Below, piece after piece: positions 9,570 through 10,262 of a stretch of 64,000 bases of DNA (within the stretch, counting starts at the first letter, position 1; every line of letters begins with the position of its first letter). The notes beneath the pieces were generated by a model. That model did not search any database. It worked only from the letters and a program-made list of their open reading frames with translations, and was not told where the DNA came from. The DNA is from Stappia taiwanensis (GTDB taxonomy: Bacteria > Pseudomonadota > Alphaproteobacteria > Rhizobiales > Stappiaceae): positions 124,001-188,000 of the forward strand of contig NZ_BMCR01000002.1 in the NCBI RefSeq assembly GCF_014635285.1, written 5' to 3'. The position numbers and the translations under genes are program-made.

Positions 9570-10262
9570 GGCAGATCCTCAGACCTTGAATTCCCAAAGT
9601 ACCAACCTGGGGCTGGCCTTTTTGCGCTAACCCGGCAGCCCGAAAGGACCACCCTGAACCTTCACGCATCCAGCCTTTCGGCGGATGCAAACCTTTGGTT
9701 GCCCGGAAGAACCGGGCCAGACGAAGCGCAGCGGCCAAGAGTGGAGCCTTCACCACCCCCTGGAACACAGCGACCTCGCATCCACATGCGAAATCGCGCC
9801 GCTTCCCGCACATCAAGCGGGAAAGGCGCTGCAGACCGAGAGGACCACTTTTCAGCGGTCGTCCATTCGACGTTTCTTCGCCTCGCAATCCCGGCAGCGT
9901 TTAAGTCCGGATGGATCCAATGCCTGTCGCGTCGGATCTGACTGGTACTTACCGCCTGCCTTCGGGATGCGCGGAACCTACAGATACCCCCGCCTTCCGT
10001 CAAGTGCGGCGTGGAATTTTCTGCCTCCCGGCCCTCGGGCACACCGACCAGGAGAAATCCATGGCCAGCGCGCCGATTTTGGTAATTTTCGGAAAGACTG
10101 GCGGGTGATTTCTTGCCGGATCAACCGACAGGCCTCCGACCGGTTTCCTACCTTACGCCTGTCCGGCGTCAAGCAAACGCATCAGAACGGGAATCTTCAG
10201 AAAGTATCAATGATTCCGAGCCCCTTCGATTCTCCGGCGCGGCGGGATTCGCCGGAGAGGAG
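9570..10262. other. Gene-free interval where rpsL would be expected
   Basis: These roughly 690 bases separate rpsG from a small acidic-protein gene downstream of rpoC. I read both strands for S12 hallmarks (TINQLIRKPR, the KKPNSALRK region, RVKDLPGVRYH) and found none. The only open frames are low-complexity Arg/Pro-rich readings with no family resemblance. A perfect nine-base-pair stem (10231-10258) sits next to the small gene's stop. A promoter for rpsG-fusA-tuf probably lies here but I could not assign one with confidence. Confidence 0.6.
10231..10258 (-). terminator. Hairpin just downstream of the small acidic-protein gene
   Basis: TCTCCGGCG and CGCCGGAGA form a perfect nine-base-pair stem around a ten-base loop, a few bases beyond the stop of the 100-aa gene. 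There is no T-run after the stem on either strand, so it may be an RNA 3'-end stabiliser or a weak or Rho-assisted terminator rather than a classical intrinsic one. Confidence 0.4.

Follow-up and report, generated by a model that had tools for sequence, protein, structure and literature searches.

In all 14 Stappia genomes searched, rpsL, the gene for ribosomal protein S12, lies away from the str operon as a single copy behind gyrB, and the S12 that it encodes is changed at the streptomycin site. Few proteins are as conserved as S12, and few gene pairs as conserved as rpsL-rpsG. The initial annotation of the window, by which we mean the whole 64,000-nt stretch of Stappia taiwanensis DNA analyzed here, had recorded the absence of rpsL upstream of rpsG, but it missed the larger point that the protein itself has changed. 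We favor the explanation that the native rpsL was displaced by a divergent S12 at a new site, kept for streptomycin resistance, and assign it a probability of roughly 0.6. The open-licence PMC papers listed in our literature searches included none on a displaced rpsL in Stappia, and none on an S12 that is relocated across a whole genus and altered at its streptomycin site, as seen here in two genera.

rpsL is separated from rpsG in all Stappia genomes with both genes

All str genes of the window lie on the minus strand. The genes for EF-Tu (tuf, 5775..6950) and EF-G (fusA, 7000..9075), named from their translations, and for S7 (rpsG, 9099..9569), identified from its open reading frame (ORF) and by profile searches, are placed as the initial annotation had claimed, with rpoC (10679..14962, minus strand; from the ORF list) upstream of them. 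The interval 9570..10262 (minus strand) is the place of rpsL in the loci of relatives. The ORF list of the window holds no S12 there, and rpsG is now the first gene of the operon. We further searched the window by tblastn with three S12 proteins (one each from Stappia, one of its sister genera and an alphaproteobacterium further removed) and found no relic of S12 in its 64,000 nt, the best match having E = 0.13. The claim that S12 is missing from the whole window was thus correct.

The same annotation had reasoned that the gene must lie elsewhere, and a genome-wide profile search (PF00164) indeed returned exactly one S12 gene in the window's own genome, at G000:C7:176571-176942 (+), on a contig other than the window's and starting 117 nt behind gyrB. 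Each of the 13 other Stappia genomes likewise gave one match, and rpsL follows gyrB in 14/14 Stappia loci with a gap of 114-180 nt. To compare gene order we searched for S12 and S7 in the own genome and 60 relatives, comprising 14 genomes of the genus and 47 outside it. S12 was found in all 14 Stappia genomes and S7 in 12, and rpsL was apart from rpsG in 12/12 genomes with both. Of the 47 genomes outside the genus, 45 gave both S12 and S7 and two gave neither; rpsL lay directly upstream of rpsG in 45/45. The canonical order rpsL-rpsG-fusA-tuf therefore occurs in 0/12 Stappia genomes versus 45/45 other relatives; since all of these relatives keep the pair together, its absence from Stappia is more than chance, and a single change on the Stappia stem is the simplest reading.

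A misassembly or collapse in the window, raised as an alternative by the initial annotation, would be conceivable for a draft genome of 20 contigs. We reject it, however, because the same arrangement is present in 12/12 Stappia genomes, four of which (G002, G008, G009 and G011) have rpsL and rpsG on a single contig, separated by 1.9-2.8 Mb, and because long stretches of the junction are conserved in an alignment of 10 Stappia loci.

The old str locus retains its promoter and leader

Although the upstream interval is without S12, as had been stated, it is not empty. A str promoter (TTGACG, 17 nt, TAGGTT) at 9975..10003 (minus strand), read from the sequence and from 10 aligned Stappia loci, is followed at 9733..9967 (minus strand) by the operon's 5' leader. 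This leader is conserved and looks structured, as judged by alignments and structure prediction, and it has been retained without rpsL. In sister genera, a promoter resembling that of the window precedes rpsL, and the order of the locus is promoter, leader of ~220-245 nt, rpsL, gap and rpsG, the rpsL-rpsG gap measuring 11-42 nt in the nine printed loci of Stappia's family. The old Stappia locus has kept the sister-like promoter and leader and lost rpsL. A small ORF (10263-10637, minus strand) that belongs to no Pfam family lies between rpoC and the str leader.

The leader anchor was present in 18/34 loci, 17 of which were aligned after omission of one near-duplicate. The resulting structure has 38 predicted pairs, and for 12 of them a two-sided change was seen in at least one of the 17 sequences. 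The leader family also includes L010, L011, L018, L022 and L028, and the alignment covers Stappia's family and one other Rhizobiales family. Rfam gave no match up to E = 1 over the leader (9733-9967) and none on 10 other loci; on 9560-10660 it gave two weak sub-threshold matches (E 0.11 and 0.13), both beyond the leader. A similar arrangement is the Pelagibacter rpsL motif, a structured leader of unknown partner that likewise lies between rpoC and str genes and that, according to the excerpt of PMC2704228, was reported only from Pelagibacter and marine metagenomes; unlike that motif, the Rhizobiales leader is without an Rfam match. In the E. coli str operon the regulator is S7, according to the excerpt of PMC10931766. 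Survival of the leader without rpsL fits a leader partner other than S12, and the Stappia locus makes it testable which protein controls the leader.

The new locus behind gyrB

The gyrB-rpsL gap holds a promoter-like site, with TTGACA in 14/14 loci, a spacing of 17 nt and TATACG (12 loci) or TATAGG (2 loci), which suggests that Stappia rpsL is probably transcribed from a promoter of its own. The earlier proposal that rpsL is no longer regulated together with the genes for S7 and EF-G stands as far as anatomy is concerned, with another contig and a promoter-like site of its own, and separate control would be its predicted consequence. Terminator-like hairpins were seen by eye, unscored, downstream of rpsL in some of five printed Stappia sequences. 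No mobile element was seen when the ORFs adjacent to the gene were read. The sequence after gyrB differs among eight sister loci, none of which resembles Stappia by eye: two sister genera have a diguanylate-cyclase-like gene after gyrB in common, and in two others the paired loci agree within each genus. Because the content downstream of gyrB varies in this way among the sisters, no empty site can be defined.

Stappia S12 is conserved within the genus and altered at the streptomycin site

Like the canonical S12 of the str operon, the Stappia protein is full-length (123 aa), encoded by a single-copy gene and a member of PF00164 (127.2 bits against a curated cut-off of 22.3); it differs in lying behind gyrB, in its own promoter-like site and in its altered residues. 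The 14 Stappia genomes have S12 proteins 97-100% identical to that of the window genome, and that of Stappia indica SN13-18 is identical to it. Between the window genome and six sister genera, by contrast, S12 is only 74-76% identical, whereas S7 is 83-92% identical. In a control comparison of the sister genome G015 with four other sisters, the values were 97-99% for S12 and 83-94% for S7, and the S12 of the sister genera is ordinary in sequence. The substitutions in Stappia include G32A, K43R, L57M, R86G, V87P, K88N and H96R (E. coli numbering, Met counted), of which K43R and K88N are present in 14/14 Stappia sequences. Both loops of the streptomycin site are therefore altered, one by K43R and the other by R86G, V87P and K88N.

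We also considered loss of RimO, the enzyme that methylthiolates the S12 aspartate, as the cause of the changes. The rimO gene (TIGR01125) was over cut-off in 3/18 genomes tested (G088, G445 and G219) and in none of 10 genomes of Stappia's family, namely four Stappia and six sisters. This candidate was rejected, since all six sisters tested are also without rimO and yet have an ordinary S12.

A similar S12 is displaced in a second genus

An exact codon pattern for GGPNDLPGV occurred in 2/385 genomes of the class, the window's own and G088, a member of genus g63, which lies outside Stappia's order. The g63 genomes G088, G445 and G446 each have one low-scoring S12, which reads K43R and GGGPND in all three. 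As in Stappia, rpsL is away from rpsG in the 2/2 g63 genomes with both genes found, the str promoter is kept before rpsG (2/2 loci), and the displaced rpsL comes with a promoter-like site of its own and with a hairpin that resembles a terminator. Elsewhere in the g63 family, rpsL and rpsG are adjacent in 5/5 genomes with both genes found; one of these five, G448, has an extra rpsG without an adjoining rpsL, and the S12 search found none in G450 and G452. The two rpsG copies of the G448 draft (G448:C26:12563-13006 and G448:C106:1703-2146) perhaps reflect contamination. A transposase gene lies directly behind rpsL in G088. Next to the displaced rpsL of G445, the first long ORF is rimO (L183 8542-9942); in G088, rimO is about 32 kb from rpsL (G088:C1:1948137-1949432).

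The S12 proteins of Stappia and g63 are only about 76% identical, and they have in common five residues (L57M, R86G, V87P, K88N and H96R) that none of 63 other S12s has. Of 1277 control pairs, 43 have one such residue in common, two have two and the remaining 1232 have none. This count excluded the fast-evolving S12s of G308, G209 and G388, alphaproteobacteria with genomes of 0.6-0.8 Mb, and with them included only K88N stays exclusive to Stappia and g63. All three have K43R and G86-P87 (L193, L192 and L191, respectively); in addition, G308 has A32 and M57, and G209 and G388 have R96. Taken by itself, K43R is more widespread, and a scan with a K43R pattern matched 18/385 genomes. We read 12 K43R loci from these genomes, 11 of which hold S12, and among the nine K43R S12 loci besides the own and G088, eight have rpsG nearby in the usual order. 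An IMG/VR contig called viral (89.8 kb), which may not be viral, encodes an S12 with K43R and a second loop reading GGSVPDLGG (L157 787-1140).

Trees and search for a donor

In an S12 tree of 76 rows, made from selected unique sequences, Stappia, g63 and G308 form a group (96/74) that joins two other fast rows (98/90). The Stappia group falls outside even the Actinomycetota and Bacteroidota rows, which is a sign of a branch-length artefact, and the tree program warned of few alignment columns and of long branches meeting. Later tree tests and residue counts were made without the three fast rows from tiny genomes and without one viral-contig row. Without the fast rows, Stappia and g63 group together with an SH-aLRT of 93.9. 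When eight functional columns were also removed, a free search missed this group, although a tree constrained to contain it had the better likelihood (AU p 0.78). Placement of Stappia with its family's S12 was likewise unrejected by the AU test on this short alignment, with p = 0.40 after removal of the eight functional columns and p = 0.22 with all columns.

No S12 donor above 79% identity was found among the matches listed for the genome, plasmid, phage and viral collections. The best identity was 79% among the matches listed for 298 other Pseudomonadota genomes, of which 271 gave a match, and 78% among those listed in a further search outside the genus. It was 77% among the best 40 of 68 plasmid records and 72% in 18 phage records; the two viral loci reached 73% and 69%, and the exact motif had no viral match.

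Origin of the displaced S12

Xenologous displacement of ribosomal protein genes is of a known kind, in which a divergent copy is present at a new site and the native gene is lost, as we propose for Stappia; the present case differs in that no donor was found and in that drug resistance is the selective cause put forward. We propose that the ancestor of Stappia acquired a divergent S12 gene, with its own promoter, directly behind gyrB, and that a deletion between the str leader and rpsG would then have removed the native rpsL. Such a deletion would leave rpsG-fusA-tuf still starting at the old promoter and leader, with S12 expressed alone. Streptomycin resistance is the likely reason why the foreign copy stayed. 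What makes us prefer replacement by a foreign S12 is that relocation and an almost identical set of residues are found together twice. That g63 has the same arrangement with nearly the same S12 suggests that the two proteins are of a common, horizontally moved type, so that a horizontal origin of Stappia S12 is favored, though not proven. More tentatively, and with the odds in our view somewhat against it, an S12 type marked by K43R, G86-P87-N88 and R96 may have spread among alphaproteobacteria that are not related, acting as a whole-protein determinant of streptomycin resistance that arrived at new sites and took the place of the native rpsL at least twice; relatives of the tiny-genome alphaproteobacteria may have been its source.

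Rapid change of the native gene is a serious rival, although we consider it clearly the less probable account. Here, the ancestor of Stappia would have relocated its own rpsL behind gyrB, without horizontal transfer, and the gene would then have evolved fast; the likeness to g63 would be convergence on a linked residue set. The AU tests leave Stappia with Rhizobiales S12 unrejected, no close donor is known, and the occurrence of K43R and G86-P87 in G308, G209 and G388 implies that these residues can recur. However, both relocation and the same residue changes would be needed twice, and the five residues common to Stappia and g63 exceed the controls when the three tiny-genome S12s are excluded. 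In addition, the present conservation of S12 within the genus implies that any fast phase was over before the genus diversified, and S7 made no comparable jump. It is unlikely that the residues compensate for an altered 16S rRNA or other altered ribosomal proteins, with resistance as a by-product. The changed residues lie in the decoding region, and the residue set is kept together in both lineages, as such compensation would predict, but S7, the sole other ribosomal protein compared, is ordinary; a 16S gene search found the gene in 2/11 genomes, none of them Stappia. If displacement by a foreign S12 is correct, Stappia would have gained drug resistance by exchanging a core ribosomal protein for another, and not by way of an added enzyme or a point mutation. 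The genus-wide loss of the rpsL-rpsG pairing, together with the alteration of conserved decoding-site residues, also offers a natural ribosome for studies of accuracy, drug binding and assembly.

Predicted streptomycin resistance

Lys43 and Lys88 (E. coli numbering with Met) are the classical streptomycin-resistance positions of S12, and resistant rpsL mutants of laboratory or clinical origin have point mutations in the native gene. Since residues are changed on both loops lining the streptomycin site, Stappia ribosomes should be intrinsically resistant to streptomycin, and resistance is the likely benefit of the new S12, as judged from its residues. In E. coli, Lys42Arg of S12 (K43R when Met is counted) confers streptomycin resistance, according to the excerpt of PMC6763770. 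The Lys-to-Arg change of such mutants is the same as that in Stappia, where it differs in being fixed in all 14 genomes, accompanied by the second-loop changes and carried by a relocated gene.

Altered S12 as a protection against drugs is already known in kind. The dityromycin producer Streptomyces AM-2504 owes its self-resistance to an altered S12 (excerpt of PMC6763770), so that resistance is built into S12 itself, as we propose for Stappia. The changes reported there are at Val32, Arg55 and Val78 and not on the streptomycin loops, and a dityromycin-type S12 was set aside for Stappia because different residues are changed. A Stappia stellulata isolate (98.7% 16S match) reportedly resisted nalidixic acid as well as 100 mg/L streptomycin, while kanamycin, chloramphenicol and ampicillin are absent from the resistances listed for it in the excerpt of that report (PMC4557100). 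The isolate's phenotype is thin but fitting support for streptomycin resistance as the likely benefit.
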